Shown here piece after piece: positions 1 through 64,000 of a stretch of DNA of 64,000 nucleotides. The translations under genes were made by a program, and so were the position numbers. The notes under the pieces are model-generated. The model saw only the letters and a list, made by a program, of their open reading frames with translations. It was not told the origin of the DNA and ran no database searches. Position 1 is the first letter of the stretch. The number at the start of each line of letters is the position of its first letter. Source of the stretch: Weissella confusa (GTDB taxonomy: Bacteria; Bacillota; Bacilli; Lactobacillales; Lactobacillaceae); the NCBI GenBank assembly GCA_014332815.1, contig JACSZT010000003.1:124001-188000 (forward strand), in the 5' to 3' direction.

Positions 1-1218
1 ACACTAGCAGCACTTGAAGCAACTACTTGGGTTGCATCAGTTGTCTTTGATGCCAAGTTAGCAATGGCATTTGCTTGTGAGTGACTCTGGTTAGCTACAC
101 TGCCAATTGCCGTTGCAGCACTTGAGGCTGTCTTAGCATATGAACTTGCGTCCGATGCATCGGTTGTTGCTTGCGTAGCAGCCGAACTCGTCGTTGCCGT
201 TGCTGAGCTAGCAGTCTTAGCAGCATCGGATGTTGCCAATGAGGCGTAAATCGAGGCAGCTGACTCAGCAACTTGTGCCGTACTATGCAACGCATTTGCT
301 TCAGAAGCGGCGGCGCTGGCAGCTTGGGCAGCACTTTGAGCCACTGCACTTGCACTTGACGCAACACTAGCAGCACTGTCCGCAGCTGATGCGGCACTGG
401 CAGCCTGTGATGCAGCCGAAGCGACGGCAACATTAGCTAGCGACGTTGCTTCAGCAAACGCTGAGGTTGCAACCGCTGCGGCGCTTGAGGCAATCGCTGT
501 CTCGCTCGCAGCCACGGCAGCAGCACTTGTAGCGGCTGAGGCTGCGCTAGTTGCTTCACTCGCAGCACTGGCAGCCTTAGCAGCGTATGAATCAGCTTCA
601 GATTGATCACCAGCTTGGGCAGCGACCGGTGCACCTGATGCGGCTGAAGTTACTGAACCTGAATCAGTTTGTATTGTTGGTTCTGCCACGTAGGCCGCTG
701 CAATCGGCGTTACAACGTTTGCGTCTTGCGTTTGCGTCACGACTTGATCCACAGATTGTGGTGTCATCGTTTCTGCAGTTGCGCGGTCATAAGCCGTCTG
801 TGCGGTTACCATTGCGACACTACCAATCAAACCACCCAAGGCGGCTAGCATTGATGCCAAAGCACCAGCAATCAAACCACGCTTCTTAACATCTGTTCCG
901 TCAGTTGGCTCACTTGTTTCCGTTGGCTCGACCGATACATTAATCGGCGTCGCACGGATGATCTTCTCATCAGCCTTAGTGCCAGCTTCGTACGGCAAAG
1001 CATTTGCTCCGCTAGACGTTGGCACCGGTCTGCAAAACCGCCATCGCGGGTTCGATTCCCGTCACTACCTCTAAAGAAAAGACCCAATCGGAAGTGTCGC
1101 TCCGATTGGGTCTTTTCTTTTTGTCGTGAAATTAAAACAAGCTCCCGAGGGATCAATTTGAAATCTCGAGAGCTTGTTTTTTATTGTTTACTTATCGTCG
1201 TTCTTCTTGCGCTTGATT
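1..1218 (-). CDS. Ser/Ala-rich surface protein, C-terminal part (5' end outside window)
   Basis: The reading frame uses minus-strand codons starting at positions equal to 2 modulo 3 and stays open through 1-1020, continuing into 1218-1188 (stop TAA 1190-1188). The product is a long, low-complexity Ala/Ser/Thr stretch. It is followed by a Pro/Glu/Thr segment, a hydrophobic segment (GLIAGALASMLAALGGLIG) and a basic tail KRKKNDDK. This tail is the kind found on sortase-anchored proteins, but I see no LPXTG directly before the hydrophobic segment. Serine-rich cell-wall adhesin is an inference from composition. The N-terminus lies beyond the window edge. Two terminator hairpins follow the stop. 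Confidence 0.75.
1079..1119. terminator. Rho-independent terminator hairpin after tRNA-Cys
   Basis: A long inverted repeat (AAGACCCAATCGG ... CCGATTGGGTCTT) is followed by a T run on the plus strand. It lies a few bases after the tRNA-Cys 3' end and is intact because it falls within one block. Confidence 0.85.
1136..1180. terminator. Terminator hairpin after the Ser/Ala-rich surface gene
   Basis: An inverted repeat (ACAAGCTC ... GAGCTTGT) is flanked by A and T runs just downstream of the surface-protein stop at 1188. It can serve both converging units. Confidence 0.7.
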
Positions 1219-1332
1219 ATAATACGGGGCTGGTTTTTCTTTTCAGTGATAGAAAACAGAAGTAAAGTAGTTAAATTTTTGTCCATATCGCGTGAGCAAA
1301 TTTCTTGACATCTCTGAAAGTTCCTTATTGAA

Positions 1333-1361
1333 TTGCAAGATGTTCACATTTCGCCTATAAT
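1333..1361 (+). promoter_or_regulatory. Promoter of tRNA-Cys
   Basis: A -35 TTGCAA (1333-1338) and a perfect -10 TATAAT (1356-1361) are spaced 17 bp apart, 34 bp before the tRNA 5' end at 1396. The whole element lies inside one block. Confidence 0.85.
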
Positions 1362-1416
1362 ATGTATTCGTGGTATAAAACTTTAAATATATTTTGGTAG
1401 TGTAGCCAAGTGGTAT

Positions 1417-4400
1417 TCATCAATCACTTCTGGACCAACAATCGTGGCACCAACCGTAAGTGCCGTCATTCCTGCAATTATCCAAGCAGGCTTTTTCTTG
1501 GCGTGATCATCCGCCTTTGCAAATTCGTTTTTATTCATTGTTCCCGCCTCAATAGTCACTCAAATTTTTGTGTATACTAAAATCCTAAGAATTTCGATAC
1601 TTTCCCTACTTTGAACAAATTCCGAGTCAACTTTGTCTTGAGTAACAACGTGTTTGTGATTCCCATCGTTCGCATCAGTGACATCACTGATTGCTGCCGC
1701 TTCGGCTGAGCGCGAATCAAATAAAATGTTTCCAATCTTCGTTAGACCAGAAGCATTCTTCTTCGCTTTAACCGATGAGCGCGGTTCATTATTACCCGTC
1801 TCAACTTGAATTATTCCCGCTGGTGCCTCAGTATTATATCTAGCCATATTAAGGTTAAATTTAATCGTCCAATTGCCTCGCATATCAACTTGCTTATTAA
1901 ATGCTAATCCACCTTTTTCGCCTGATGCATTTCCAGCTGTCAAGGTAGTGAAAACAGCTCGGGTAGAACCGCCGTACGACCCAATACCATTCGTGGCACC
2001 ATTAGAAGTAGAATAGTCCCCTGCATTATTAAACGTGACATCTCCCATGTCAGTATTGTTATATAAATCAAATCCCCAAAACGTTGCGTTCTTAATGCCA
2101 TCTATACCCAATCCTCCACCAGTTGCACCTTGTGTTCCGATTTCTGTTGGCGTAACAGGCGCAAGCAGCATACCAAGTGAATCCCCGGCTCCTCTGGGAC
2201 TAGTTAAGCACTTCGCACTAGTCATATCTGACCCTGTATTTTGAGCACCCAAAAGGGATGTTGCGGCCACTACGTTGTTACCACTTGTTTTCCCCTCGTA
2301 ATCAAATACCGCCGAATCGTCATCGGCGCTGGCAGCTAACAATTTACCCGTGCCATCAGTTTCACGGAACCCAACTGCGTGTTGTCCATCATTGTTCGAA
2401 AGCAGGCCCAGTTGAGAAAATTGACCGCCGTCTGAAGCCTTAAACCCCAACGACATAATTTCATTCGTGCTCGTGATATCAAAAACTCTTGTTGCTGTAT
2501 ACGTTCCATTCGTTGTAATTTTCAAAGTACCTTTTCCACTACTTGGATCGTACGTATAAGCTGCAGTAACAGGAACTTCGATATTCGGGTCCGTATTTGA
2601 ATCTCCAGAGATCGCAGGGGCATCAAAAGTGTGTGCTGTACTAGTTGGGGCCGTATCCCCCCCAGACTTAACAATTTGCAACGTATCTCCCGAATTCGTC
2701 GAAATTTTAGTGGCATCTTTAATAACATTGCCTGCTGTATCTTTATAATTAATCGTAGTTTCACCAGTTGGCAAAAACAAATCAAAATTAGTTACCGTAA
2801 CGTCATAATTGGTACCAGCTGTTCCCAATTCAACTGAAGGCACAGTTGAAATAACCTTACCGTTCTGGTCAACAAAGACCGTCGTCAGCTTGGAATTTTT
2901 GGCATATTGCAGATTAATAACATTATCAGCATCTGTATTTGATACAGTTAATGACGTCGTACCTGCGGCTGTTCCATATGTCGAACTTAAGTATGTGTAT
3001 GCAGCTGGCGTCAATTGGACGTAAACCGTCTTATCAGATGATCCAAATGTCGCAGATGACAGGTCAGCACCCAGCTTAGTCGTAAGCCCTGAATCCGAAT
3101 AAACGCCCGATACCGCACCGGTATATCCAACCTTCGTTGCAGCTTCCAAGGCCGCTGTATACTCAGAATAATCAGCCGCATCCGTACCCTTTTGCCCAAA
3201 TCTGTATCCAAAACAGTTCCATCACTAGCGGTAATCTTCGCCGTAAAGCCATCCGGCACCTTAATCGTGTTCGCTGAATAAGCCCCGTCCGTGACACCAG
3301 TCAAAGACGTTGCCGAACCACTAATAGCTGTTGAAAGCGCCGTCTTTCCGGCGTCTCAACCCATCTGGTTGTGTGTAGCTGATAGTTGCTGTTTGCCGGC
3401 ATAATCCGTGAACGTATTCTGGTTAACAACATCCGTTGATCCATCTGGGTACGTTGTGGTCATGTTAACTGCCTTTTGGGCGTATGCGACCGTGAAACTT
3501 GGCACGGCTAGCGCTCCGGCACTAGTCATATTGAAGGCACCAACAATCGTGTATGTGCCATCGCCATTGTCCTTGTAGTACATTGACTTCGTTAACGTTT
3601 GCGCATCGTTCACAGCCTTCAATGCATCTTGCACTGATTGATCACTTGCAACAACACCAGCATCTTGTGGTGCATCTTCATAAGCAACCGTGTGTGCAAT
3701 GTTATCGGCACCAAAACTACCCGCAGCAATTGATGTTGCCTTGTTATTATCAACGAACGACACCTTGCCGTCTTGTTGCTTGATGCTTTGTTGTGTCTTA
3801 GCATCAGCCAACCAGCCAGCAATATCTGTGTCGGTTGAGTTGTCAACCGCAATTGCCTCAAGTTGCGTAATGTCACTCTGAATTTGCGCAATGTTGTTGT
3901 TGATTGAATCAATATTCGCTTGGACATGCTTCTTTTGCGCATCCAATACAGCAGCGTTGTAGGCCGATAATGCGGTTTGATAATCAGCCGAGGCCAAGTT
4001 TGAAGCTGCGCGAGTCTGGGCACTCAACAAATCGTCATCTGCAATCTTTTGTGCTGACGCAGCCGCTGCACTGTTTTGATCAGTACCAACTACAAGGTTG
4101 TTGGCATCCGCCATCGACATCGTGTCACTATTTAAACTTTCAAGAGCCGCTTGGGCTTGTGAGAGCGCCGTTTGCGCATTCGTCAAATCATCAACAGTCG
4201 CTTGCGCAGCCTTAGCATCTTCCAAAGCCTTTTGTGCTTCAGCTAACGCGGTTGAGATTGTTGTATTACCTGAGTAATCCTTAGCCAATTGCTCCAATGC
4301 GGCCACGTCATCTGCAATCGTGTTCGTGGCTGTCGTATTGTCACTCGTGACCGCAGTTGCAGCAGACGTTGCGGCTTCCTTAGCCCCCAATTGTTGTTGG

Positions 4401-7400
4401 ATTGCTGCCTTTGCTGCCGCTTGATCGTCAGCAAGCACCTTTGCAGCTTCAGCCTTCGCAGCTGTGACTGCATTATTAGCAGTAACCAACATGTTTTGCA
4501 CGTCCTTACCGGCAGCATTAACGGCCGTTTGTTGCGCAATAACTGCTTGCACTGACGTCAAATCTGGCACTTCTTGCGCAGCAACTTCTGCTGGCGTTGT
4601 TGCGTCTTGAGAGTCCGTCATTGCTTCGGCCAACGTCTCCAATTGCGCGTTTGCCGTTGCTAATTGTGACTGGGCGTCAGTCAAAGCAGCTTGAATATCC
4701 GCATCCCCAGGATTATCATCGAGCAATTGTTGAATGGCATCAATGTTAGATTGAATCGTCTTAGCATTCGCATCAGCATCATTGATGTCGTCATTGATTT
4801 GCGCAATGTTATCCGTAACTTGCGTCAATTTATCACCAATTGCGGTTTCCGCAGCTGATTTTGCAGCTGCCAAATTAGCGTCAGCCTTCTTTTGCGCATC
4901 GGCCAAATCCGTTGTTGATTGTGTCGTTGCATCAGTAATTTTACTTGCAGCGGCTGTCGCAGCATCACACGCTGCTTGCACAGTAGTTGTGGCCGTTGTG
5001 GCTGTGTTTTCCAAAGCCGTCACTGCTGCCACTGTAGTTGCAGCATCAATCGCCGCTTGGGCATCCTTGATTGCTGTTTGTTGCGTCGTTGCTGTCGCTA
5101 ATTGTGACTTGGCATCATCCAACAAAGCAGCAATCTTAGTGTTTTCTGGATTATCAGCTGCAATTTGCGTCAGCTGCCTCGTGTCACCAGGGTTGTTATC
5201 AGCCAACGTTTGAATCGTGGCGATATCCTTTGTGATTTGGTCAATTTGATCTTGAATAGCTGCAATGTTGCTATCCACTGTGGTTGTTGCTGCCTCTTGG
5301 GCGGCCTTCAAATCGGCAGCTGCCAACGTCTTCGCGTCAGCCAAATCTTGGTCGGCGGTTGTTTGCGCTGTACCTCCAGTCGTCACGTCTTGCGCTGACT
5401 GTGTGCCAGCCGCTTCAGCATTAGCTTGATCCTCGGCTGCTACCGTCGTTACTGCTGCCACAGCCGCTGGCGTTGTCGTATTAGCGATTGCTTCCTTTTG
5501 AGTGTTTGCATCAGTCAAAGCTGCGTTAGCGTTATCCAATTGCTTCTGCGCATCAGTCAATGCATCCGAAATTCTTGTTTGTTGCGTAAGTGCATCAGCC
5601 AACTTATCCGCAATTTCTTGATCATCTGGATTATTGTCTGCAAGTGTTTGCAACGTTGCGACGTCGGTTGCGATTTGCGCGACAGAGTCGTTAATGGCAT
5701 TGATGTTGTCTTGAATAGCATCCTTGGCAGCCTCTTGAGCGGCCTTCAAATTGGCATCATTCTTAGCTTGACCAGCTTGCGCATTGGTCAAGTTGTCCGC
5801 AGATTGTGATTGTGCAGTCGTCACATCCGTACTTACAGCATCAGCTGCTGCCTTGGCTGCGTCCTCATCCTTTTGACCTTGCGTTGTCAAAGCATCAACG
5901 CCCGCTACCGTCGTTGCGGCATCCACGGCCTTCAATTGTGCTTCGGCATCCGTCAAAGCATTATTGGCAACTTTCAATTGTGCCTCGGCATCCGTCAAAG
6001 CATTGTCAGCAATTGTCTTTTGACTCTCAGCGTTCGTCAAAGCATCTGCAATCGCCGTATCACCAGGATTCTTTTCAACCAAATCTTGTAGTGATTCGAT
6101 TGTATCTGCAATCGCTGCTTGGTCCTTTTTGATTTGGTCAATGTTTGCTTGAATGTCCGTCTTGGCTCCTTGAATGTCAGTGATATCTTCAGCAATGGCC
6201 GTCTCGGCAGCTGTCTTGGCATCGGCCAAATTGTTCGCAGCCTTATCCGTTGCCGTATCTAATTGCTTTTGCGCATCTGTCACAGCCTTATCAGCTGCAG
6301 CTTGATCGGCTTGGGCGGCATCAGTAATTGTCGTCACATCTGCCAACGTCTTTGCATCATCAACTATTTGTGTTTGCACGTCAGCAATTGTCGTTTGATC
6401 AGCAATCGCATCCTTGGCCGCTTCAGCAGCTTCTTTTTGTGCTTGGGCATCGGCCAATTGTGCTTCAGCATCCTTCAACTTGTCAGCAATCGTTGTGTTG
6501 TCTGGGTTATCAGTCGCAATTTGCTTCAGGTCATTAACATTGCTTTGAATACTATCGATATTCCCTTCCAATGCCTTAATGTCATCTTGAATATCACCAA
6601 TTTGATCTTCAATTGTTGAAATTGTTGAATCAACCGCCTTTTGCGCAGTCGCTTGGTCAGCAGCCAAGTCGGAGGCTGCTGCCGTCTGAGCATCGGCCAA
6701 ATCATCCGCCGCTATCTTGGCATCTGTATCAGAAGTGTCCTTGGCAGTATCGGCAGCATCAATGGCTTCCGAAGCTGACGTGCCAGCATCCGTCGCTGCC
6801 TTTTCAGCCGCCGCTACTTCAGCTGGTGTCGTGGCACCTTCGATAGCTGCCTTTTGCTTTTCAGCCGTATCCAATGCCGTCTCAGCTGTTGTTAATTGGT
6901 TCTTAGCATCCGTCAGCTTGTCTGCAATATCTGAGTCATCCGGGTTCTTAGATGCGATAACCTTCTCAATCACCGTATCGCCTGGATTATCAGTTGCTGT
7001 TTGTTGCAAGTCATCAACAATCGTTTGGATATCGGCAATATCTGACGTGATATCGGCAATGTTTTGATCCAACGCCTTATCAGCTGCATCCTTGGCTTCA
7101 GTCAAGTTACTGTCAGACTTTGCTTGGGCGTCTGTCACATCTTGGTCAGCTACACCCCCTTGTTCGTCAGCCGTCTTTTGATCAGCTTGCGCGTTCTCCA
7201 AATCCTGAGCTGACTTTTCAGCGTCTGTTTGACCAGCATCAACCGCTGCCTGGACATCAGCCAGCGTCGTTGCGTTATCGGCATTGTTCTTTTGCGTTTC
7301 AGCATCGGCCAATTGTGTCTTAGCGTCCGTCAATTGTTGCTTGGCATCTTCCAACCCCGTTTCAGCTTCAGTCAATTGCTGTTGCGCATCCGCCAACTTA

Positions 7401-14178: not shown

Positions 14179-14224
14179 ATTATGTTTTGTGCTTTGCGAT
14201 ATCTCTCGCTCAACAACAAAAATT

Positions 14225-14253
14225 ATTATACATACCTTCTGAACACTTTGCAA
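14225..14253 (-). promoter_or_regulatory. Promoter of the tRNA cluster
   Basis: On the minus strand, TTGCAA (14253-14248) and TATAAT (14230-14225) are spaced by 17 bp, the same -35/-10 pair as at tRNA-Cys. It lies about 47 bp before tRNA-Val. Confidence 0.85.
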
Positions 14254-14369
14254 CCCCTTTTTTAAAATAAAAAGCACACAATGCATTCGAACCCCCACCA
14301 ACGGTTTTGGAGACCGTCGTTCTACCGTTAAACTATACCCCTATAATGGAATGTATTATTAAATTCCAA

Positions 14370-14429
14370 TGGCGCGGGAGGGAATCGAACCCCCGACACT
14401 ACGAGCTTCAATCGTATGCTCTACCAACT
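14370..14429 (-). tRNA. tRNA-Phe (GAA), 5' end missing (chimeric with tRNA-Asp)
   Basis: D loop, anticodon arm (loop TTGAAGC), T arm and acceptor 3' strand CCGCGCC plus A are present. The expected 5' acceptor strand and first half of the D stem are absent; the sequence begins directly after the tRNA-Asp T arm. Both tRNAs at this junction would be non-functional if the sequence is right. Confidence 0.75.
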
Positions 14430-14579
14430 CACAACGGGATTCGAACCCGTGATCTTTCGCGTGACAGGCGAACGTCCTAACCATTGCGGGAACTGGATTT
14501 TGAGTCCAGCGCGTCTGCCTATTCCGCCACAACGGCATATCTAATATTAATCGGATGATAGAAAGTTTAAAACTTTCAA

Positions 14580-14654
14580 GGGCGGTAGATGGGAATCGAA
14601 CCCACGCATGTCGGTACCACAAACCGATGTGTTAACCACTTCACCACTACCGCC
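14580..14654 (-). tRNA. tRNA-His (GTG)
   Basis: A complete cloverleaf lies inside one block: acceptor GGCGGTA/TACCGCC with discriminator C, anticodon loop TTTGTGG, T arm GTGGG TTCGATT CCCAT. Confidence 0.93.
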
Positions 14655-14710
14655 ATTATCTATCAAGCAGGGGTAGAGGGAACACTTGTAACCCGAAGGT
14701 CTTTAGATTA

Positions 14711-14794
14711 TGCCGTCGGTGGGGGTCGAACCCACACTCCCTTGCGGGAACTGGATTTTGAGTCCAGCGCGTCTGCCTATTCCGCCACAACGGC
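14711..14794 (-). tRNA. tRNA-Leu (CAA), copy 2
   Basis: A complete 84-nt class II tRNA lies inside one block, the second tandem copy at the end of the cluster. A strong terminator (15047-15078) follows after restoration. Confidence 0.94.
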
Positions 14795-15046
14795 ATGATT
14801 ATTATTAGATAAGACCTGAGGCCTGCTTGGAAACCCGAAGATTTCCGATGCCGTCGGTGGGGGTCGAACCCACACTCCCAGCTTATGACAATAATTTAAC
14901 CGAGCCACTACAACCCATCTCCTACAATTTATCATTGTTTTCAAGCCAAAAGAAAAAGTTCCCCTATAAAAGACAGCGAGTAGCGCTATACAAGTAATAA
15001 TAGTCAAATATCGAAAATAATACCGATTTATCGGAATGTTAGATGC

Positions 15047-29334: not shown

Positions 29335-30918
29335 ACGCACATCATAACCAATCGTTTCAGCCAGATCATCATACAAACTCACCGCTGATCGATCGACTTT
29401 TTCAATGTAATTCGTTAATGGTGACCCTTGAATAAAATCACCATTTTCAATTGTAATGATGACATCTTCGGGATTAGCTTGTTCACGCAACGTTTCAATA
29501 ACTGTCGCTGCGCGGGTCAAACCCAAACCATACCAATTCGGCACGTACTTGGTAATCAATCCAATGACACCAACCTTCACCCCACCACGTTCAATAATCG
29601 TGTATGGACGACCAATGAACGGCTCACCACTTGTTTCGTCCAATACATTGGCATTCAGTAACAAATCGTTTTGTCCTAAAACGCGTTCAAGATAATCACG
29701 CCCGTAATTAAATTCGTGATTACCCAAAAGTGAGACTTGCAGCAATTGGTACCCTTGGTTTTCACCCGTCAAACGTTCCAACGGTTCACCAGTCTCCAAA
29801 TCTTCAGCAAAACCGCCGTGATAAGCCAATACCAGCACATCCACTTGTGGGCGCAATTCGTCAACATAACGTGTTGCAACTTCGACCGGGTCAGCAAACG
29901 TTAACCCATGAATATTAGCAGGTTGTTGCTTCACCGCATCGTTCTCAGGGAACACCGCTGTGGCAATCAATTGGGCGTCACGGTTGGTAATTTGGTGTTC
30001 GTCATTCAACGTAAGCGTCATCAAACCAACTTGATCAGCGCGATAGCCAGGCTGCGTTGTCGCAACATGATTGATAACCGCTGCCAGTGTACGATGTTGG
30101 TGACCAGTCACAACAGCATCAACACGCACTTCGTTGTTAAACAACGCCGTATTAGCAATCGTCGTTTGTGTCGCATCCATTTGCACTTGGTTAACCAAAG
30201 CGATAAATGGGTGGCTGTGCAAACGCGCTTCGAAGTGATTCGTCACTTGCATGTTGTGGCCAACGTGACCGACTGCCGTATCAAGCCAGTGATTCGTCGC
30301 CACGTGTACCGGCTCAACGACCGAGTTATAGTGTTCAACCTTAGGCTCCAAAAACGCTGGGTTAACGGTTGGTTGACCATTATCATCCAAGACAAAGTAG
30401 CGTGCGTTCACTTCAAGCGCATCTTTAATATCTTGCCCCGTCAACTTTTCGACAACTAACGTATTTGGATAAATGTAATTCGTCATGATGTCACGCAACG
30501 TCACTTCATCAGCCAACCCCTTTCGTTGCACTTCACGAACCACTTTATCCAGTGAGAAGGATGCGAAGTTACCTGCACCACCCGCACGGTAGTTATTCAT
30601 TGCAACTTCGTATTCGCCGGCCAAATCAATTGGCTCACCATCAACAAGCACTTCAATCACGCGCTCACCTTCACGACGGCGCAAATCAAAGGTGTAATCA
30701 ATACCACTCCAAACATCATGGTGAGTACATGATGATGATGCCACGTAAAGCCTACCAAAGGAAATATTGGTCTGATAAAGACTAGCTAAAAAGCCGGTTT
30801 CGTCTGCACATAGACGAAACCGGCTTTGTTTTTAATAAATCACATGGAAATTCGTTGGTTGGTCAATCTTAATATCTGGGTGACTCATAATGTAATCACC
30901 AATCAAATCGGCCGTTTG
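29137..30918 (-). CDS. Bifunctional metallophosphatase/5'-nucleotidase (UshA family)
   Basis: The start is ATG 29214 after AAAGGAG; the stop is TAA 30834-30832; 516 aa. The five metallophosphoesterase motifs appear in order after restoration: [29 protein letters not shown] and TGHQHR. The C-terminal nucleotide-specificity domain contains [14 protein letters not shown]. No signal peptide is seen, so the enzyme is probably cytoplasmic. It hydrolyses nucleotides or cyclic nucleotides to nucleoside and phosphate. Position behind phnDCEE suggests that the imported compound is a phospho-ester rather than a C-P compound. Confidence 0.9.
29229..29266 (-). terminator. Hairpin between phnE and the 5'-nucleotidase gene
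   Basis: AGAAGGTCATCGAGTACTCGGTGGCCTTCT folds as a stem loop just before the nucleotidase ribosome site; the U tract is weak, so partial readthrough is likely. Confidence 0.65.
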
Positions 30919-31512
30919 TTGCCGACCGTGGCGACAGCTATCGCCCAGTGATTTTCGTAGCGAATGATGAGCAACGACAAATTGCCGAGGCGTCAAAGCG
31001 CGCCTTAAATGATTCTGATCGTTTCGACGCACCAATCGTTACAAGCATTGAAGACGCCAAGCCGTTTTACGATGCCGAAGAAGAACATCAACAATTCTAT
31101 AAGAAGAACCCTTTGACCACGGCTGGCATCCAAAAGGTGCGTTCAGGTTACACTGGCGGTTTCGTCGCCAACCCAACCTATGCACAGGTTGCATCACACC
31201 AGACTGGCCACACAGAAGCCGTTAAAATTTGGTTCGATGATGATATCGTTTCATACAGTGATCTGGTTGAACTATATTGGCAGCTTGCCGACCCGACAGA
31301 TGCCATGGGCCAATCCTCACTTAACTTTTGTCAGTCATTATTATAACCAAAAAAGTTGCAATAACGATTTTTCAAGGGAAAGTCTTGAAATATTGCTTTT
31401 GTTTTTGCACCAACTGAGTAGAATAAGAACCAAACGGAGGGGAACAATATGGCAATTCAAACAGCAATTTTCGCAGGTGGATGTTTCTGGTGCATGGTCG
31501 AACCATTTGAGA
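30721..31512 (+). CDS. msrA: Peptide-methionine (S)-S-oxide reductase MsrA
   Basis: The start is ATG 31449 after GGAGGGGAAC; the stop is TAG 30783-30785; 174 aa. It repairs methionine-S-sulfoxide. The catalytic motif GGCFWC is at residues 10-15, and [25 protein letters not shown] and [16 protein letters not shown] follow; the last motif is formed across the join 31314/30919. All three joins are base-exact. The gene is divergent from a 92-aa protein gene. Confidence 0.95.
30787..30830. terminator. Bidirectional terminator between the nucleotidase gene and msrA
   Basis: A long perfect hairpin (AAAGCCGGTTTCGTCT ... AGACGAAACCGGCTTT) separates the two converging genes. Confidence 0.9.
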
Positions 31513-31908
31513 ATAGGAATTGCAAGTAACCACGTACCAATTCATCATCAGGCAAAGCTGACAACTTTGGCAAGCGCTCTGATAACTCTGGCGCTGACAA
31601 AATCATTTGCTCATTCGCACGCGCAATACGTGGAATGCTCTTGCGAATCGTTTCTGCCATTGAAGCAACCATCGCGTCATCAATTTGAAGTGTAATACCC
31701 ATTTCTCTGTGAGGTGACTTAATCGTAATCATAATAATCTCTCTTCACTAATCATATGTTTTTATTTTACACGTACCACTTACAAAAAAGCCACGCAAAC
31801 GCGTGGCTTTAAGAGTTTCTCAGTAAATAACCGTTGCTAGTTGTGACGTCAAAAATAGATCGACGTAAGCACGGTCCAGCAACATCTTCGTATCATTCAT
31901 TGACATGG
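31513..31908 (-). CDS. Small conserved-looking protein, unknown function
   Basis: The start is ATG 31702 ([20 protein letters not shown]) with GTGAGG contributed across the join 31315/31710; the stop is TGA 31822-31820; 92 aa. It is mostly helical and acidic/neutral, with no transmembrane segment and no motif I can assign. It is divergent from msrA and ends in a terminator before map. Confidence 0.65.
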
Positions 31909-32700
31909 CTTCATTCACTGAAACGGTCGTGGCGTATTCATAGCCTTCAAAGCCGATTTGCGCAGCACGTCCGCCGTGACTCTCAATGTATTGGCGACTA
32001 AATTCTTCAATCTCCCAGGTTGAAATACCTGGCTTAATAATATCGCGTAGTCCTTGGTGCATACCGGCAATGATTGCCCCAGACTTACGCATTCCCTCTA
32101 TCTCAACTTGTGCTTGTTCAATTCCGATGTACATTGCTTCTTTGGCAACATCCATCAAGCGTTGGGCTTCAGGTGAGACTTCACCAACGGCATACGTCCA
32201 AGCTGAATCTGAATAATAACCATCCAATTCAACCACCGTATCAACTGTGACGATGTCTCCTTCCTTAAGGAAAAGTGCCTTACGTGGAAACGCGTGCGCA
32301 ACCTCCATCGGCTCAATCGTAATTGTCATACCAGGCTTCAAGCGTAGGCCACGCCCCGCAACACCATAGTGGAACACATTTGGATCTTCGTGCATCGTTG
32401 GTTGAATACCGTGACCAACATAATCACGGACATTACCATAGCCGTTTTCATCTTCAACAAAAGCGTTGATGGCAGCCCCAATATCACCCAAACGGTTACC
32501 ATCTTGACCAGTCATGGATTTACCTCCTGCAAATTATAGATACTTTGCATCGAATTCAGGATCCTGACTTGTCAAAATCTTTGGACCCTCTTCCGTAATT
32601 GCAATCACGTGCTCGTATTGAGCTGACCATGAGCCATCCAACGTCGTCACTGTCCAACCATCTTCTTCAGACGTTTCAACTTCCCACGTTCCCATGTTAA
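31711..32700 (-). CDS. map: Methionine aminopeptidase, type I
   Basis: The start is ATG 31732 ([20 protein letters not shown]); the stop is TAA 32536-32534; 260 aa. It removes the initiator Met from nascent proteins. Metal ligands are visible in the pita-bread fold: Asp in [18 protein letters not shown], His in [12 protein letters not shown], Glu in MTITIEPM and Glu in [14 protein letters not shown] second gene begins about 20 bp after the stop. Confidence 0.94.
31783..31811 (-). terminator. Terminator between the small protein gene and map
   Basis: AAGCCACGCG/CGCGTGGCTT hairpin with TTTTTT on the minus strand. Confidence 0.88.
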
Positions 32701-33645: not shown

Positions 33646-33690
33646 AAAGTCGAATTTATTTACTTTTTAATACCTAAATTACTATACGTG

Positions 33691-35076
33691 CACCGAAGAC
33701 GTTAACGTAACCAGTCGTTACTGACGTTTCAATGGCCGTACGTGCTTGTGGGTCTTCAGCCAAAACGGCATCCAAAATGGCATCTGAGATTTGGTCTGAA
33801 ACCTTATCTGGGTGTCCTTCTGAAACTGATTCTGACGTGAACAAACGCTTTTCTGACATATAATCTAATCTCCTAAAATAAAAAACTAATGGATCAACAC
33901 CACCGTCTTCACGGTGCTCGATAGCTGAGTCAACACCTTGCGCAATGTCAGGTGATTGCTCGTCCAACGTTACCCCAACGTGGATATCGTCAGCCAAGAA
34001 ACCAGCTTCCTTGTCATCGTAACCGATGCGCTTCAATGTGTTACGAACAATTTCGTTAATGTTAACGTAGGCCGTCGTTGACATCTTGTCGTTTTCATCC
34101 AATTCAACCGTCACTTGCGCCTTAGCGTCAGGCAACAAGTATGACAACTCACCTGAACGGCGCACGTCAGCTTGCTTCTTAACCAACTTGTGTGACAAAA
34201 CAACTGACAATGGCAAGTATTCGTCCGTTTCGTTCGTGGCGAAACCGAACATCAAACCTTGGTCACCAGCACCAATTTGGTCCATCATACCGGCATCACC
34301 CTTAGGTCCTCCGATTACGAAGCGGCCAGTTGGGTTGATGTAGTAACGCGTCTCGTCGTCAACCATGTCGGCTGGCAAAACTGGGTCGATGATGAACTTA
34401 CGAACATCGGCACGCAATTGCTCCAATGAGATTGACTCACGGTGTTGCGTTGACAAAACGACAGCATCGATACGGATTGGCCCCGGCTTTGCCACACCGA
34501 TAGCGTAGGCAACTTGGATTTCAACCTTTTCAGCCAAACCAGCTGCAACGATGTTCTTGGCAATGTGACGCGTTGCGTAGGCAGCCGAACGGTCAACCTT
34601 GGTTGCGTCCTTACCTGAGAAGGCACCACCACCGTGACGAGCGTATCCACCGTACGTATCAACGATGATCTTACGACCATTATCCAAACGCTCCCATGGC
34701 AAGTCCAATTCAGGACGACCGAAGTGACCGTAAGCGGCAGTTGCTTCATAACGAGGCTTGCGCAAGTCCAAGTCCTCGATGATTCCGGCTGGACGCAACT
34801 CGAACAAGTCACGGATTGCAGCTACCAATTCATCATCAGAAACCTTACCCGTACCGAACGTGTTGACGTTAACTGAAATTCGGCAATCACCTTAACATCA
34901 TCATTGTCCGTGTAATTAGTAATCTTGAACATGTATTTACCCCTCCTACATTTAACCTCATTATCCCATACATATTCATTAGAATACAGAAAAAACGTTG
35001 CAAGTCCTAAGACTCACAACGCTTCTAAATTATCTTATTTATTACTTGTTAAAGTATGCCTTCAAAGCATCAACCA
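33691..35076 (-). CDS. metK: S-adenosylmethionine synthase
   Basis: The start is ATG 33859 ([20 protein letters not shown]) after TTAGGAG; the stop is TAA 35044-35042; 397 aa. It makes SAM from methionine and ATP. Signature segments: [32 protein letters not shown]-like [10 protein letters not shown], and the phosphate loop [19 protein letters not shown]. In the given order these appear in reverse block order. It is controlled by the SAM riboswitch just upstream. Confidence 0.96.
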
Positions 35077-46362: not shown

Positions 46363-46560
46363 ATGCATTTCATTTCAAATATTCGATAATAACAATTATA
46401 AAAATATGAACGAAATAATTAAAATACATTAATAGCATTTTTGTTTTTAAACAACAAAACATTATGAGCAAATGGCCCTATACCACTAGATAAATAGTTC
46501 ACCCCAGACACCCTTTTACTCTTCTACTTCTTGTTGATTAGTTTCAAAAATAGCTTATGT
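46363..46560. other. AT-rich intergenic block, no gene seen
   Basis: It is strongly A/T-rich compared with neighbouring genes and marks the left edge of an AT-rich segment that runs to about 48930 (peptide, GtrA, ABC exporter). I find no supported reading frame or RNA. Confidence 0.5.
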
Positions 46561-46596
46561 ACGTCCTCTAATCACTTAGGTCAGTATATTGTCAAA

Positions 46597-46665
46597 TTAC
46601 CCCCACATGTTGTGCTTAATACGGTAGTTTGTATATGCCGTAATCCACTTACCAATCGTACGCAT
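46597..46665 (-). CDS. 22-residue peptide, possible leader or signal peptide
   Basis: The start is ATG 46665 with a very good ribosome site GGAGGGG seven bases upstream; the stop is TAA 46599-46597. The sequence MRTIGKWITAYTNYRIKHNM plus Trp-Gly is basic, aromatic-rich and has no hydrophobic helix. It lies inside one block, so it is unaffected by the inversion. A hairpin (AGAGGAC ... GTCCTCT with T run, formed across the join 46561/46956) separates it from gtrA. It could be an attenuator leader or a secreted peptide for the ABC exporter. No homologue is known to me. Confidence 0.45.
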   Translation of the reverse strand: MRTIGKWITAYTNYRIKHNMWG

Positions 46666-46758
46666 GACATTCCCCTCCTGCTGATAAATATTTGCAACTC
46701 ACTATGTTCATTACATAACAAATTATATCTCTAACAAAAAATTTATCATTAATAATAG

Positions 46759-47352
46759 CAGCTAGTAACCATGAAACAACAACAGCTATTTGCACGTTTA
46801 TTCCAACGAATAAAAATAATGCGTACGAAACAACGTTGATAATTGTTGTTGTTACTCCAAAAATTCCGTATAAAATAAGTGCCTTATATTTTTCAAATCT
46901 GGCAAACATGCGTGGACGCTCCTTTGTAATAAATAAAATAGAGGACGAAATTTCTTCCACGATATTATCAATAATCTTCCAAACAATAGGATCCTGATTT
47001 AGGAGTTGAACCCCAAACCAAATTATCACCATCTCCACAACCAGCGTCGCTAATCTAGCAATCATAAAAGAAATGAACTCGCGCAATAATTCTACCTTGG
47101 TAACTGCTCCAGAATTGAATACCCAGACTCTATTAGTTAAGTAAGCAACAATTTAACAGTACCATCACCTTTTTGGGGACAATCAATTGACTAATGACCG
47201 CAATTATTCCGAACAAAATCCCTACAGAAAACAATCTCCATTTAGGTTTTGCATCATTTATCAGTACTTTATATGCTTTTAGCCTTACCACGCCTATATA
47301 TTCCTAATTTTAAAAACAATCAGTTTGCTGATTATATAATTCAAAATGATGG
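46759..47352 (-). CDS. GtrA-family membrane protein
   Basis: The start is ATG 46909 after AAAGGAG; the stop is TAG 47296-47294; 135 aa. Four transmembrane helices are visible, with [36 protein letters not shown] and [12 protein letters not shown] typical of GtrA/DPMS-type proteins that help move lipid-linked sugars across the membrane. AT-rich codon use differs from the flanking genes. The next gene (ABC exporter) starts 2 bp after the stop. Confidence 0.85.
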
Positions 47353-48936
47353 CCCGTTTTCCATGTTGAGTTAAACGCCATTGAATATTTTAAATAACGA
47401 TCCCACAAAGAAATTCGGAGTTTTTGAATAGCTAATTGTCCAAACTTTGCAAGTATGTACCCCGAAATCATCGCTGCTAATATTTCTACAAGAACCCAAA
47501 TAATCACGCTAATTAAATCATCTGATTTGATTCCTTTGGAAAAATTATCCATTGAAACCACAGGAACCACTAATAATAAAAACATGGGTAGCGAAGTAAG
47601 TAAAACTAATGAGAATTGCCAATTTAATGTGAATAAAATAATTACCGTCCCTAAAATCAAAATAATCGACTTTATTAACTCAGGAAGTGTGACAGATAAA
47701 AATACATTTACAGTCGTTATATCGCTAGTCAATCGAGATATTTTTTCTAGGGGCACAATAACGGATTCATACGCAGTACCTTTCAAGGCCGTACTATATA
47801 GCTGATTTATATTTTTCGTACCTTGGTTTACTTCGAAAACTTCCGTGCTGTTTATCTTTACTAGCTGGATATTGTCTAACACTTCAGTTGCATCACCAAT
47901 AAAAGTGGCCATATTCTTCTGATTTTTAACCGTTAGTTTTTCTAATTTGACTAATTCATTTGAGCTTCCCAGAGCTTTACTAGTTTCTCCAACCAGCTGG
48001 CCCATTTCCGCGATTGGCGCAACCAGCTGAATAATATACATTAGAGAACTAACAAGTATCCCCAATGTAATTTGCTTATTCGCTATCTGGTAAACTCCAA
48101 AAGATAGTATGCCAAAGATATCCAATATCACCAGCATAGTTACGGACAGTATAGTAGACTTACCACTACCAGAGGGGCCAACTATTGCCGTTACTTCTCC
48201 TCTTTTCGCCTCGAACGACACATCTTTTAAAACATTTTTTTCAGCGTCGTGATACGAAAAAGTGACATTCTTAAAATTTAAATTCCCAGATTTAATAACG
48301 GAAAATCCTGAAATCAAATCCTCAGTCTTATGATTAAATAAGGAAAGGGAAATATTTTTTTCATTAACGGGTTTTGATAGTCCGTAGATTAAATTATCAT
48401 TGACGGTCCCTGTGCGAAGAAAAGGCCGCTGTGTGACGTAACCTATATAGTTGCGCCAACTGCTTAATTGGTAGTCCTTTATATTCGTATCGCCGTATTC
48501 AATACTTCCGGAATCAATGTCATATAGCCGTTCAATAAGAATAATTTTCTCCGTTTTTGAATCTAATGCAGAAGTCGCTTCGTCATACAAAACAATATCT
48601 GCATTTTTTAACAAGATTCTTGCGATTGATAACCTTTGTTGCTGCCCGCCGGAGATATTAGCACCGCGGATACCTACACTTGCCTTTAAACCTAATGGCA
48701 TATTATTAACGTCACTCAAAAATCCAGCTTGCTCAATTCAACACAACTAAATAATCTGGTTCTCCACGTATTCTCGGTAAAGCGGATGTGTATTCATAAG
48801 TTCGTCGTGTATTCCAAATCCTGTAACTTGCCCGCTTTCTAAGAAAATTATTTTATGCGCATCAACAATTGTAGAGAGCCTATGAGCTACCACGATTGTG
48901 ACTTTATCAGGAGCTTGACTATACATAGTATTTTTG
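47155..48936 (-). CDS. ABC exporter, fused transmembrane and ATPase domains
   Basis: The start is GTG 47291 ([20 protein letters not shown]), 2 bp after the gtrA stop; the stop is TAG 48749-48747; 570 aa, the normal half-transporter length. Six helices are followed by the ATPase: Walker [11 protein letters not shown]-loop [11 protein letters not shown], signature [15 protein letters not shown], Walker [13 protein letters not shown] and H-loop AHRLSTI. It exports a peptide, lipid or drug. The low-GC operon with GtrA and a tiny peptide suggests an acquired module. Confidence 0.9.
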
Positions 48937-53292: not shown

Positions 53293-54084
53293 CAATGCCG
53301 TGCTATTATATGGTTCATTGATTGTTCTCGTACATTATTACTTGAAACAACACGACCAGGTGCGCTATGCCATCATGACATTATTCGCCGCGCTGGTCGT
53401 CGCCATCCCCCTCAGCCGTGTCTATCTTGGTGTCCACTACTTATCGGATATCCTGGCCGGGTTCGGACTTGGTACCTTTTTCCTAATTAAGTTAATTGTG
53501 ATGACGGCGACCGCCATTGTGGCATTGCTAGTTCGCAAAATCGACGTAGCCGTGTTTATCGTTTTGAACGTCGGCGTCTTCGGACTTGGTGTCATGGCAC
53601 TACTTAAGCACGTTTTCCACCGCCCACGACCTGACATTTATCACGTCATCAGCCAAGGTGGTTTTTCCTTCCCATCGGGTCACGCACGTAAGTTTGATTA
53701 TTTTCAGCTTGCGGTTGCCTTTGCGGGGTTAATCCTATTTATTTTATTAGCAATTGGCTATACCCACCATTTGGGTTATATCGATTGGATTGACCAGTTT
53801 GGCTTCAAACATATCCGGCAACCAGTCACGCCAGAGCGATCTTGGTTCTTCCGTAACATCACGCGTGCCGGTAACCCAAAGTGGACCTTTTCTACTTCTT
53901 TGTGTTGATATGCCATGATTGATAACCTCACTTTAATGTTCTAACTTTAACAAAAAAATGCCGTTCTTTCAATAAATGAGCGGGTTTATACCGGTGTTTC
54001 ACACGACTAATAATTAATCCAAATTGTGATACACTTAGTTAATGAAAAAGTAGTGAAAGCGGGTGTCCATATGTTTCAAATGCA
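53095..54084 (+). CDS. PAP2-family phosphatase
   Basis: The start is ATG 54071; the stop is TGA 53180-53182; 231 aa. Six hydrophobic helices carry the three PAP2 motifs: [16 protein letters not shown] (formed across the join 53688/53293) and [12 protein letters not shown]. It dephosphorylates lipid phosphates such as undecaprenyl-pyrophosphate or phosphatidate. It is divergent from leuS, and the ytqB-like gene overlaps its end. Confidence 0.9.
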
Positions 54085-56658
54085 CATTGGGTGCAAAACA
54101 TTGAACCCTTGCATACGCTTCATACGTGAAACGATATCAGTTGCCGTGTAACCTTCTGGGTGTCCAACGTGTAGCCCTTGCCCTGATGGGAATGGGAACA
54201 TGTCCATTGCGAAGAACTTTTCCTTTGAGTGGTCTGATGACGTCTTAAAGGTTTGATTCTCTTCCCAGAAGCGTTGCCACTGCAATTGTTCGAAGATCCA
54301 TTGCGTCCACTTGTAGTACTTAGGGTCAGTCGTGTTAACCTCACGTGACCAGTCATATGACAAACCAAGTGTCTTCATTTGGCGGCGGAAGTTCTTAACG
54401 TTCTTCGCCGTCACGACACGTGGATCCTCACCCGTCTTGATTGCGTACTCTTCAGTAGGCAAACCGAACGCGTCGAATCTGTCTAAATCTTCCAACAAGC
54501 GATCAGCGTAAGCCGTGATCTTCAATGCCCATTGACGCATTGGGACACGGTAAACTGGGAAGCCACCACGCTCCGTCTTACCGTCGATGATTTCTTCGTT
54601 GGCAACAACCGTTCCACCATTGTAATCAGGGGCCCAGTTAACCATGATTTCATCTTCGTATGCCAAGCCCTTCTTGTGATCAGAAACAATTTCTGATACC
54701 AAAGCGTGTTCTGGTGACAAAACCAAGTACGTCACACCGTACAACGTATCAGCACGCGTCGTGAAGACTTCAACTTCAGCGTCTGAATCCTTCACCTTGA
54801 AGTTTACAGAAGCACCGATTGAGCGACCAATCCAGTTACGTTGTTGTTCCTTAATGGCGTCTGGCCAATCAACATGAACGGCCATCACGGCACCCGTTCC
54901 GTATGATGAAAGGACATAATCACCGACCCAAATTGGCAACTCTTCACCATTAATTGGGTTAATTGCAACGGCACCTGTGAACACACCTGACTTATCCTTA
55001 TTCAAGTCCGTACGCTCCAAATCTGACTTTGAAGCGATTGACTTCTTAAAGGCTTCGATAGCATCCTTTTGATCACCAACACCTTGCTCTTCCAACCAAG
55101 CGATTGCCTTTTCGATAGCTTCTTGCTTACCCATGCCATCCAAGAAGCCTGAGTTGATGTGCTCACCATCGCCAGTATAAGCTCCTTCAGCGATGTCACC
55201 GCCGGCCAAAACTTGGCGCATTGGCAAATCGTACTTCTTAGCAAATTCGTAATCACGCGTATCGTGAGCAGCGTCGTCAACGTTAACCAATGGTGACTCA
55301 CCAGTACCTGAAGGCATGATGTTATCAACTTCTGGCAAACGCAATGGCAATTGGTCTTCTGGTACAAGCGTCTTTTCACCATCTTCCCAGTGGATGACAG
55401 GAATTGGCTCACCCCAGTAACGTTGACGTGAGAAGATCCAGTCACGCAAGCGGTAGTTAACTTGCTTGTTGTGCAACACAGCGTGCTCAGCACCACCGAT
55501 GTACAAGTCAACGTTCTTCCAGTATGCCTCAGCCTCTGGTGAAACAATTTCCTTGTCGTTGTGTGGATCCATGTAGCGCAAGTAGTACCATGATGAACCA
55601 GCCCATTGTGGCATCGTGTTCGTCTCGCGCTTACCCTTGCGGCCGTTTTCGTCAACCACGTTTACCCTTTCGTACAAACGCAATGTGTCGGCACCATATT
55701 CTTCAACCACGTCATCAGGGTTAACAACGTTACCCTTAGACTTAGACATCTTCTCGTGGTTTTCACCCAAGATCATACCTTGGTTAGCCAACTTTTGGAA
55801 TGGCTCCTTGGTGTGGACAACACCCAAGTCGTACAAAACCTTGTGCCAGAAACGTGCGTACAACAATTCGTAGTCTTCCGTAACCTTCTTAACCGTCTCG
55901 TTGTAGATCTTGTCCAACTTGTGGTCGTTAACCGTCGTGATGTGGTCGCGTAGCTTGTCTTCATCATCGATGAACAAACGCCATACACGATCCAACCAAC
56001 GACGTGAACCAGCCAAACCATCTTCTGACCAAGCGATTGATTGTTCCAAAGGTCCCATGAACAGGTCAAACGTTGGCCATGGTTGGTACGTCACTGATTC
56101 GTCCTTGTGCAAGAAGCTCCACAATTCTTCCGTCATGTGAGGGGCAATTGGGTTCAACAACTTGATGAATCCTTCAACGTATTCAACAGGCAAGTTTTCT
56201 GCCTTGTATGCTTCGTTGATGAAAATCATCATTTGTGAGATGGCCGTGTTGAAACGTAGACGAACGTTCACCAACTTACCTGGCACAGCGATAACCTTCT
56301 TTGGTTGTCCGCCATCCAGTTGCTTTTGAACGGCTTCGTCAGCGATTGCCAACTCAGTCATCTTCTCACGGTCAGCGTCCGCAGGAATCGTCAAACGACC
56401 GCGAACCTTACCGTTAACTTGCAAAACGATTTCAATTTCATCTTCAACCAAAGCAGCCTGCAGTTGCTGCTCGCTTCATGCCACCCATTCCCAGGTTCTC
56501 AACAACCATCAAAATTCTCTTTGCCATGCCCTGCACCCCCTTGCTTTGCATACTAAAAGAGGAACCCCCACAAATGCGAGAGTTCCTCTTCAGTATAGTC
56601 ACTATTGTTTAAAAAGTGGCGCTAGATGTCTTAAAACCTGACATGCAGATTACAAAAT
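53887..56658 (-). CDS. leuS: Leucyl-tRNA synthetase
   Basis: The start is ATG 53916 ([20 protein letters not shown]) after GTGAGG; the stop is TAA 56652-56650; 804 aa, the normal length. The HIGH-type motif is in [12 protein letters not shown], the KMSKS loop is EKMSKSKG, and the editing (CP1) domain contains [14 protein letters not shown] and [10 protein letters not shown]. In the given order the C-terminal domain comes first and the HIGH motif last. Thirteen consecutive blocks rejoin without a base lost, ending [10 protein letters not shown]. Confidence 0.97.
53944..53972 (-). promoter_or_regulatory. Promoter of leuS
   Basis: -35 TTGAAA (53972-53967) and -10 TAAAGT (53949-53944) with 17-bp spacing, about 27 bp before the leuS ATG. 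I see no T-box leader. Confidence 0.65.
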
Positions 56659-61235: not shown

Positions 61236-61373
61236 TTACTTTGACTCCAATTCAGCCTTACCCTTGGCCCATTGTTGGATGTTAACAACTTCAGCCACAC
61301 GAGCCTTCTTTGCAGAATCGTGTGATGTTGGTCGCTTACGAGCCCATGAGTTGTATGGTGATTGAACAGCCAT
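61236..61373 (-). CDS. 45-residue basic protein, unknown function
   Basis: The start is ATG 61373 (MAVQSPYNSWARKRPTSHDS) with the strong ribosome site GGAGG ten bases upstream; the stop is TAA 61238-61236. It lies wholly inside one block, so it is not affected by the inversion. It is Lys/Arg-rich with a helical C-terminal half (KARVAEVVNIQQWAKGKAEL). It could be a small nucleic-acid-binding protein; this is a guess. Confidence 0.6.
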   Translation of the reverse strand: MAVQSPYNSWARKRPTSHDSAKKARVAEVVNIQQWAKGKAELESK

Positions 61374-61410
61374 GATCATTTCCTCCATTTATGTTATCGA
61401 TAACTTTACG

Positions 61411-62796
61411 CGACTTGATTGCCGACATGTCAAAGGGCTTGGATGCCTTGTAATATTGATAGAGTAAACTCCCCAACGATTTCGGTCGTTTGGGGAGTTT
61501 TTCGTTAGGTAGTTGGTGGTTAGTGTCCGTCCACCACTAACTAACACTCAACCAAAAGTGCAAAATAAAAACCGCGTGAACGTATATCTACGTTTCACGC
61601 GGTTTTTTGCTACAACCTGGTTTGGATGTTAAGAAGTTTGTTGAGAACTTGGATGTCTTCTTGTTGGCTGAGTCACTTGGTGGTGTTGAATCATTGATTG
61701 AAGTACCAGCAGTGATGACCCACGCTTCTATCCCACGCGAGATTCGCATTGCTAACGGCATCAAGGATGAGTTGGTTCGTATCTCAGTAGGTATTGAAGA
61801 TATCGTTTCATACATGGTGCAACGTTCAATTAAGACGTTGGCTTTGCGCGTGCAACGCCACAACGAAAACACGATGGCCTTGGCTGAGTTCTTGAACAAC
61901 CACCCAAAGGTTGCCAAGGTTTACTTCCCTGGTTTGCCAGGTACGCCTGATCACGAGATTGCTAAGAAGCAAATGCGTGGATTTGGTGGCATGATGTCAA
62001 TCGTGGTTGATAACACATTCGCTTCACCATACAACCAAAACCCATTGGACTTGGGTGCTGACGTGGTTGTTCACTCAGGAACGAAGTACTTGGGTGGTCA
62101 CGCCGACCTATTGTCAGGATTCGTGGTCGTGAAGGACGCTAAGTTGGCTGAGCGCATTAAGTTCATCCAAATGTCTATTGGTGCAGTCTTGTCACCACAA
62201 GACCGCTTGGTTAACCGCATCATGGCCGAGTTGGGCATTAAGTTTACGGCGGTTGATACAGCTGATAGCGATGCTTTGAAGGCCGCAATGACGCCAGAAA
62301 CAAAGATGGTTTACTTGGAATCACCTTCTAACCCATTGATGCACGTGACGGATATTGCTGAAGCATCAAAGATTGCCCACGAAGGTGGTGCAATTGCCGA
62401 AGGTGGTGGCGCTAAGTATGAGTACACGCGCGGTGAGAACCCTACCCGCTTCGCTTTGGAGTCAGTTATGGCTGACATTGAAAACGGAACGGATGGATTT
62501 GCCTTTTCATCAGGAATGGCTGCTATCCACGCCACAATGAGTTTGTTGAAGGCCGGCGACCACATCGTCATGGCCAACGACGTTTACGGCGGAACTTACC
62601 TCTTTTTCTTGCGGAAACATCACCATGTCCTTACAATAAGTCTATTCATTTCATTGTTAACATTTTCAAGCAAAGAAGGGGACACAAACATGAAGTTTGA
62701 AACAAAGGTTATTCACGGTGGTACACAAGGGGATCCAGTTACTGGTGCTGTTACCACACCCATTTACCAAACATCAACCTATCACCAAAAGGAGCT
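61411..62796 (+). CDS. Cystathionine gamma-lyase/synthase family PLP enzyme
   Basis: The start is ATG 62690 (MKFETKVIHGGTQGDPVTGA) after AAGAAGGGG; the stop is TAA 61451-61453; 379 aa. Cys/Met-metabolism PLP fold: YEYTRGENPTRFALE, FAFSSGMAAIHATMSLLKAG, YLESPSNPLMHVTDI, and the PLP-binding Lys in HSGTKYLGGHADLL. It interconverts cystathionine, cysteine and homocysteine; synthase and lyase cannot be told apart from the sequence. On the plus strand as given, its pieces also run in reverse order, so the rearrangement affects both strands alike. Confidence 0.93.
61468..61504. terminator. Terminator after the cystathionine lyase/synthase gene
   Basis: ACTCCCCAACGA/TCGTTTGGGGAGT hairpin with a T run. 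Confidence 0.88.
61570..61608. terminator. Second terminator hairpin
   Basis: AAAACCGCGTGAACGTA/TACGTTTCACGCGGTTTT, near-perfect stem ending at a block edge. Confidence 0.8.
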
Positions 62797-64000
62797 AGTT
62801 CACCTCATCATCAGTCACAACACCAGTCGCAAAAGATGATCGCAAAGTCGTTGGTGGAAATACGACGCGATTCTTTATTTCAACACCATTCGCCAACTTG
62901 AATGGTTCAAGGAATTTATAACTCATTGTCATTAACTCTTTCTTATTATTAGTGACACTATTATAGCATTATGTACAACTATTAAATTTTTGCAGTGCAA
63001 TACGGCCACCAAACGACAATTGCAAAACCGGCACTGATCCACGGTTCTTAATCACGTCCGCAATCTTCTTCAACCCTGAAATCTTCTCATCAGAGTCAAT
63101 GCCAATTTGACCAACGTATGTCTTACCAGCCATTGAAACGTATGCCATTTCAACGATGACCAAACCAGGTCCACCAGCACGCATCTTGTAGAGCATCGCA
63201 TACATGTTGGCACCGTGTAACTCAACACCGGCAAAGCCAGCTGCAATGGCACGGCGAGTTGCTTCACCAAAGTCGGCGATACTTTGACGAATTTCCTCAT
63301 CGGTCATCGGACGTGGCGTAGCCATCCCTGGTTGGTGACCTGGTACATCAGAAGGGCCAACGACGTCATCGTGCAATACCGCTGCCGTTAATGAATCCGT
63401 AAAGCGAATACCAGGCGTCGTTGGCTCTTCAGGTGATTGACGGTAACCAATAATGAATTGCTCATCCGCAAATTCATCACGCGCTGCGACTACGGCATCC
63501 AAAACTGCTAAACCGTAACGCATGCGGTCGTTCAAATCACCACCCCATTCATCAGTGCGTTGGTTGGCGTGCTCTGAGAAGAATTGTTCTTGCACAAGCG
63601 CTTCAACTTGCTCTGGCGTACGCAACAAACCAGCGACAATCAACGGAACGTCACCCAAAATTGCCTTGTACTTGGCATAAAGTGGCTCCTTATCTTCCTT
63701 ATTCATAAATGGCGTTTGGAACGCATCCTTTAATGAGATGTGGAAGTATGAAATTGGTCGCTTGATAATTTCTTGAGCCATCGCTCGCTCATCAGTTGAG
63801 ACAACGAGCCCCTTCTTAAAGCGCGTCAACAACCAGAAACGGAGTGGCTCAGGGATACCAAGCATCTCAAAATCACTCGTTGAGATAGCATAGCGAATCC
63901 CTTTTTCATCATTATTCATGACTTTTTGCACCCAGTTTGGATCGACAATCAGTTCACGTGCAATCGCAGCTCCATCAACGCCGACCAGGCTTACCTAACT
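62797..64000 (-). CDS. Old-yellow-enzyme-type NADH:flavin oxidoreductase, truncated by window end
   Basis: The start is ATG 62936 (MSYKFLEPFKLANGVEIKNR) after AAGAAAGAG. The restored protein runs at least 370 residues to the window edge. OYE barrel features: PPTTLRSSF, VLQLSFGGRI, GFAGVELHGAN, TDEWGGDLNDRMRYGL, VAGLLRTPEQVEAL and ARELIVDPNWVQ-type C-terminal strand. It is FMN-dependent and reduces enones with NAD(P)H. The last complete block ends at 63984; the remaining 16 bases belong to a block cut by the window. Confidence 0.88.

Follow-up and report, generated by a model that had tools for sequence, protein, structure and literature searches.

Reverse complementation in 198-base steps within a Weissella confusa genome assembly, very probably a sequence-handling artefact

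RESULTS

The cut genes and the repeating unit

The window (the whole 64,000-nt stretch of DNA analysed, C18:124001-188000) lies on contig JACSZT010000003.1 (C18; 312,453 bp) of the W. confusa assembly GCA_014332815.1, which has 2,294,552 bases in 24 contigs. It carries leuS, metK, map and msrA together with several tRNA genes, and these are cut by a pattern that repeats every 198 bases: compared with W. confusa DSM 20196, each period consists of 197 bases that are reverse-complemented in place, followed by one base that is left unflipped. In particular, 323 successive periods extend from 31 to 63984 (no strand assigned), each with a flipped chunk at 31+198k to 227+198k and a kept base at 228+198k.

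The reference sequence was JQAY01000001.1 of DSM 20196 (L026; coordinates as G005:C1 and G028:C1), to which the window pieces have a DNA identity of 96.2% when weighted by length, with a median of 97.8%. Overall, 298 of the 323 chunks were placed on it; all 298 are flipped and 291 of 292 neighbouring pairs are collinear, and the other 25 chunks have no match. The two genomes share the same chunk order at this level of identity and, judged from their sequences, would by inference belong to the same species; they differ in that leuS, metK, map and msrA are whole in DSM 20196.

A single window base and a single reference base separate consecutive 197-base chunks. The kept base agrees directly with the reference base at the same place, with no reversal or complementing. 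In the leuS region this holds at all 91 testable junctions, in the window at 273 of 277, and in 23 stretches of nine contigs (C9, C10, C11, C14, C15, C18, C19, C20 and C24) at 1748 of 1774. In contrast, the two possible conventions for flipping the whole 198 bases fit 403 and 400 of these 1774 junctions, which is about chance. When the phase is shifted by one base either way, the base is direct at only 55 and 52 of the 277 window junctions, and 261 and 266 of them are fitted by treating it as one more flipped base of the neighbouring chunk.

Shared words lead to the same unit. All of the 34,409 unique 21-mers common to the window and the reference contig match on the minus strand, and the steps between anti-diagonals (297, the number of runs minus one) are exactly 396 bases (2 x 198) in 264 cases. 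Only 143 of the 34,409 anchors span a kept base, compared with ~3,649 expected without breaks; the depletion is absent at the six residues tested in C21, an intact stretch of the same genome. Moreover, the window yields 318 matches of at least 60 bases to the whole reference contig, with 137 of them exactly 197 long and 214 of them 190-200 long, and 103 matches to 22 kb of the DSM 20196 record, all flipped and in collinear order. Base composition, which needs no reference, also sets the kept bases (n = 322) apart: 183 are purines (56.8%; A 94, G 89) and 139 are pyrimidines (T 78, C 61), compared with 45.9% purines in the whole window. This opposite strand bias is expected if the kept bases alone sit on the original strand.

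As given, the pieces stand in reversed order and both gene strands are affected alike. Neither genes nor a strain-specific insert shift the 198-base phase, and the period follows file coordinates, not content. An earlier note, made from the letters of the window, had described an exact 198-bp block inversion, blind to content and with one phase across the window, that reverses the piece order on both strands, and the 21-mers and chunk mapping bear out each of these features except the unit itself, which is 197 flipped bases and one kept base. The joins that it called base-exact are not so, as each of the four that it named (in tRNA-Cys, tRNA-Trp, msrA and leuS) has a kept base on one side. Flipping the blocks from 31+198k to 228+198k, its proposed remedy, does restore gene order, and it needs a one-base correction; an exact 198-bp flip is rejected by the kept base. 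The comparison with a reference Weissella genome that it had called for turned out as it expected, with the chunks collinear once flipped, and its pattern "across the whole window" also continues beyond the window, into every sampled stretch of C18 and into eight further contigs.

Restoration of genes and tRNAs

All restored gene coordinates are those after undoing the 197+1 pattern. The given open reading frame (ORF) at 54076-56451 on the minus strand is a block permutation of leuS, which lies at 54039..56465 on the plus strand. Undoing converts 12 high-scoring segment pairs (HSPs) into a single HSP covering 809/809 residues at 99.75% identity, and 12 stretches with an NCBIfam score of 798.8 bits into one stretch of 1123.1 bits. 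Across 28 Weissella genomes compared, leuS is above the family cut-off in 27; the exception is the present genome, where its pieces lie inside one open frame of 799 residues. The methionine adenosyltransferase gene metK (33647..34909, plus strand; permuted in the given minus-strand ORF 33674-34828) similarly goes from six HSPs to one (421/421 at 99.5%) and, for TIGR01034, from six stretches and 414.8 bits to one stretch of 549.3 bits. For map, encoding type I methionyl aminopeptidase (31886..32665, plus strand; permuted in the given minus-strand ORF 31820-32515), three HSPs become one (260/260 at 100%) and three TIGR00500 stretches with 171.7 bits become one with 278.9 bits. Lastly, msrA (30856..31377, minus strand) changes from two HSPs to one (174/174 at 97.1%), and its restored protein, the only order scanned, scores 194.9 bits for TIGR00401.

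The protein comparison before and after undoing therefore gave what the earlier note had foreseen, a single full-length match for each gene in place of 12, 6, 3 and 2 pieces. Under the 198-bp model, the identities are lower for all four proteins (LeuS 98.39%, metK 98.6%, map 99.2% and msrA 96.6%). Even so rebuilt, LeuS has W. confusa DSM 20196 as its nearest named relative, with 98% identity over 804 residues, and the note's attribution of the DNA to Weissella was correct.

The tRNA genes are restored as well. The gene for tRNA-Cys(gca) at 1167..1238 (minus strand) is absent from the given order and is found after undoing; the restored cluster at 14195..14852 (plus strand) reads Val, Asp, Trp, His, Leu, Leu, compared with Val, Trp, Asp, His, Leu as given. 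Across the three tRNA-bearing stretches, the count increases from 6 to 8. The additional tRNAs predicted by the note thus appear, and they do not discriminate between units, as the 198 and 197+1 models both give 8; the count of 8 is reached at 14 of 198 phases, so that it narrows the phase no further than about -9 to +4 bases. In the part of DSM 20196 that matches 14195-14852, ARAGORN finds only Trp and His.

Stop-to-stop frames of at least 100 residues total 26,111 residues as given and 27,232 after the 198-bp undo, a weak reference-free test of phase, since 198 is a multiple of three. Block reversal without complement was rejected, as the open frames then drop to 7,831 residues.

Strain-specific and repetitive stretches

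The stretch at 46364..48935 (no strand assigned) is missing from the matching place in the reference, leaving a gap between HSPs from 46363 to 48936. In the reference, the anchors at 46343 and 48968 are separated by 200 bases, giving an insert of ~2.6 kb, and the 198-base phase is identical on its two sides. By eye, the given ORF at 47310-48719 within the insert resembles an ABC exporter in permuted pieces. Two other stretches, 3356-13930 and 37375-43056, hold very long, repetitive open frames that look surface-protein-like, also by eye; some of the 25 unmatched chunks may lie in them.

Extent in the genome

The chunked pattern occurs in at least one sampled place in nine contigs with 1,129,274 bases (49.2% of the genome), and seven contigs with 1,120,591 bases (48.8%) are intact wherever they could be compared with a reference. 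The longest matches in the intact contigs are 6,830 (C8), 11,745 (C13), 4,943 (C17), 15,000 (C21), 18,058 (C22) and 16,940 bp (C23), and 4,000 of a 4,000-bp query in C12. Both chunked and intact parts are present in C20 and in C24. The listed completeness of the genome is 66.51%, compared with 95-100% in 27 other Weissella genomes, which suggests that the assembly itself is damaged.

Among the small contigs, C1 is short and contains 100 N; it seems mixed, beginning with three chunk-like matches that are followed by intact ones. It matches stretches of G006 that also match the end of the first contig within C18 (contig A, defined below), and these common stretches are probably an rRNA operon. 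In the copy analysed, C2, C3, C4, C5, C6 and C7 are all N.

Register and contig ends

The register is counted from contig starts, with base 1 of the input sequence as its origin. Phase 0 is found in C9, C10, C11, C14, C15, the first parts of C18 and C19, and C24, where it was read from 20 kb on, the first 20 kb having no reference. In C18, the phase is 0 up to base 60,472 and 82 from base 61,265. As 60,472 equals 305 x 198 + 82, it is therefore the end of an original contig, and C18 consists of two contigs, 1-60472 (contig A) and 60473-312453. Further, C19 has phase 143 at 116-119 kb, and C20 has phase 140 after an apparent 140-base piece.

The last, short piece is fully flipped at the four contig ends that were judged, those of C9, C10, C11 and C18 contig A. 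The full flip fits 91 of 92 testable bases in C9, 22 of 22 in C10 (the best of three offsets), 52 of 52 in C11 and, against one of two G006 flanks, 82 of 82 in C18 contig A. A rule that keeps the last base fits 22, 3, 19 and 23 bases at these ends, and 198/198 and 197/198 bases in two complete periods.

Order of contigs within scaffolds

C18 reads the reference from 252.8-313.9 kb and then from 0-252.8 kb, each contig being flipped in chunks. This contig order is opposite to that of the reference, as a correct reverse complement of the scaffold would give. When C24 is compared with the reference order, its chunks ascend as far as C22:243 kb, reached at C24:219.6 kb; from 240,370 at the latest, C24 then matches C22 19,780-1 (19,781 bp) intact on the minus strand. 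Likewise, the chunks of C20 match C3:60-64 kb at 36-40 kb, and its end is filled by an intact minus-strand match to C3 20,000-1 (17,912 bp). Judging from these matches, reversal of the chunked parts as whole contigs would put the C20 and C24 scaffolds in reference order where they were compared. Where checked, the order and orientation of contigs are correct for a reverse complement, and only the order inside contigs is wrong.

The two C18 contigs adjoin in the reference (C18:1-51 and C18:312152-312453). Their matches have 3 bases in common there (L146 12757-12759), and each contig has extra sequence that matches other contigs. The arrangement resembles that of an insertion sequence, absent from DSM 20196, with a target duplication of 3 bp.

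DISCUSSION

The pattern is real, and it is an artefact without biological novelty. Very probably, it was made by a computer before or at the scaffolding of the W. confusa assembly, through a faulty reverse complementation in chunks. The simplest reading is that the program was meant to reverse-complement whole contigs: those needing the other strand would have passed through the routine, and the others would have been left intact. The routine would have read an unwrapped sequence line through a buffer of 198 characters and, at every read, treated the closing character as a newline; the remaining 197 characters would have been reverse-complemented in place and written back, with the pieces themselves staying in their original order. 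The shorter piece at the end of a contig would have had a real line end, hence its complete flip. We infer the buffer-and-newline reading, as well as the step of the pipeline at which the error occurred, from the 197+1 unit, the register that starts with each contig, the fully flipped last pieces at four ends, the presence of chunked and intact contigs in one genome and the reversed contig order in C18. File handling, the explanation first offered for the window, is likewise supported by the fixed period in file coordinates, the contig-start register, the behaviour of the last piece and the spared contigs.

Several observations weigh against this account or narrow its basis. The buffer size and the newline step were not read from a program or its source code. 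At 26 of the 1774 junctions the base is not direct, and at 5 of these it is the complement; some mismatch at junctions is expected because the reference is another strain, with 96.2% identity in the window. The end of C18 contig A requires an indel against the second G006 flank, with 39 of 82 bases fitting ungapped and, once moved to the next offset, one half fitting at 41 of 41, and two rules fit the first 140-base piece of C20 almost equally (132 vs 133 of 140). A part of C20 (4.7-15.8 kb) matches G005:C2 at lower identity, and the collinearity of C20 and C24 after reversal is shown in part only, by a comparison without C3:20-60 kb and C22:20-40 kb. As for extent, C1, C16 and C2-C7 (44,687 bases, 1.9%) fall outside the assignment to chunked or intact contigs; contigs longer than 20 kb were sampled in stretches of at most 20 kb, several of which have no reference match, and C12 is represented by 4,000 bases.

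If a FASTA file wrapped at 198 columns had been reverse-complemented line by line, the period would be the same, contigs would start at phase 0 and their last line would be flipped throughout. Such a step would also flip all 198 bases of each line, and it is refuted by the direct 198th base at 1748 of 1774 junctions and the chance-level fit of the whole-198 conventions. A deliberate transformation after deposition, for example a planted test, had been named beside file handling in the earlier note; any pattern can be scripted, and this reading is much less likely than a handling error. It must hit some contigs only, restart at a contig start inside the C18 scaffold, leave each 198th base untouched, turn the last piece over completely and reverse the contig order, and the low listed completeness would fit an error that was already present when the figure was computed.

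Explanations that begin with the DNA or the reads fare worse still. Chimeric or palindromic reads can yield inverted segments, but they do not produce a single exact period with a contig-start phase over hundreds of kilobases, and an assembly error of this kind has almost no probability. The least probable of all is an inversion of numerous short segments in the real DNA, whether programmed or site-specific; invertible DNA exists in bacteria, but here the 198-base period is set by file coordinates, with no change at genes, tRNAs or a strain-specific insert, and each unit has one unflipped base. No shared junction site was found, the maximum information within 25 bases of the 322 junctions being 0.052 bits, compared with 0.063 bits across all 198 residues. 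Site-specific inversion would be expected to act on segments bounded by genes or promoters and to leave the host genes working; instead, leuS, metK, map, msrA and tRNA-Cys are cut, the first three being permuted, and leuS, above its family cut-off in all 27 other Weissella genomes, is in pieces here. Biology as the cause is excluded in practice because of the constant phase in file coordinates, the lack of a shared junction site and the permutation of essential genes.

The faulty reverse complement has consequences for users of the assembly. As 198 is divisible by three, the reading frame is preserved; long open frames persist, and gene finders would therefore predict permuted proteins. These proteins exceed their NCBIfam cut-offs (LeuS 798.8 vs 548.4, MetK 414.8 vs 309.4 and Map 171.7 vs 171.35 bits), and annotation therefore need not flag them. 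The contigs concerned account for about half of the genome, and analyses of strand, skew and the order of genes or domains cannot be relied on there. The use of the finding is thus a warning about data quality; the order inside the chunked pieces is uninformative on the living bacterium. The signature can easily be screened for, as family matches split into many pieces within one open frame, in reversed profile order.

It is possible, though we hold it to be doubtful, that the same buffer error has passed unnoticed in other public assemblies of the same pipeline, and that protein databases hold proteins permuted in blocks of 66 residues, which would be taken for open reading frames since a 198-base block keeps the frame. 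In a survey of rpoB in 295 genomes of the order, 292 are over the cut-off among the matches listed, a weak test, as the present genome's own rpoB matches well. By best E-values, the three below the cut-off are presumably G221 (72% complete), G228 (71%) and G230 (89%), which are assemblies in 120 to 510 contigs. G251, a single-contig genome that is 83% complete, has six rpoB matches, which perhaps reflect indel errors. A literature search aimed at such a sequence-handling error found nothing relevant among the papers listed, and no named program was tied to the pattern.

Shufflons and phase-variable promoters are invertible DNA segments, and the present pattern resembles them in that its segments stand in inverted orientation. 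It differs from them in its fixed period, in the essential genes that it breaks and in having neither a shared junction site nor an association with genes. Buffer-length and off-by-one errors occur in sequence-handling programs, and the pattern has the marks of this class: a block of fixed size, one character per block treated as a line end, and an odd last block.

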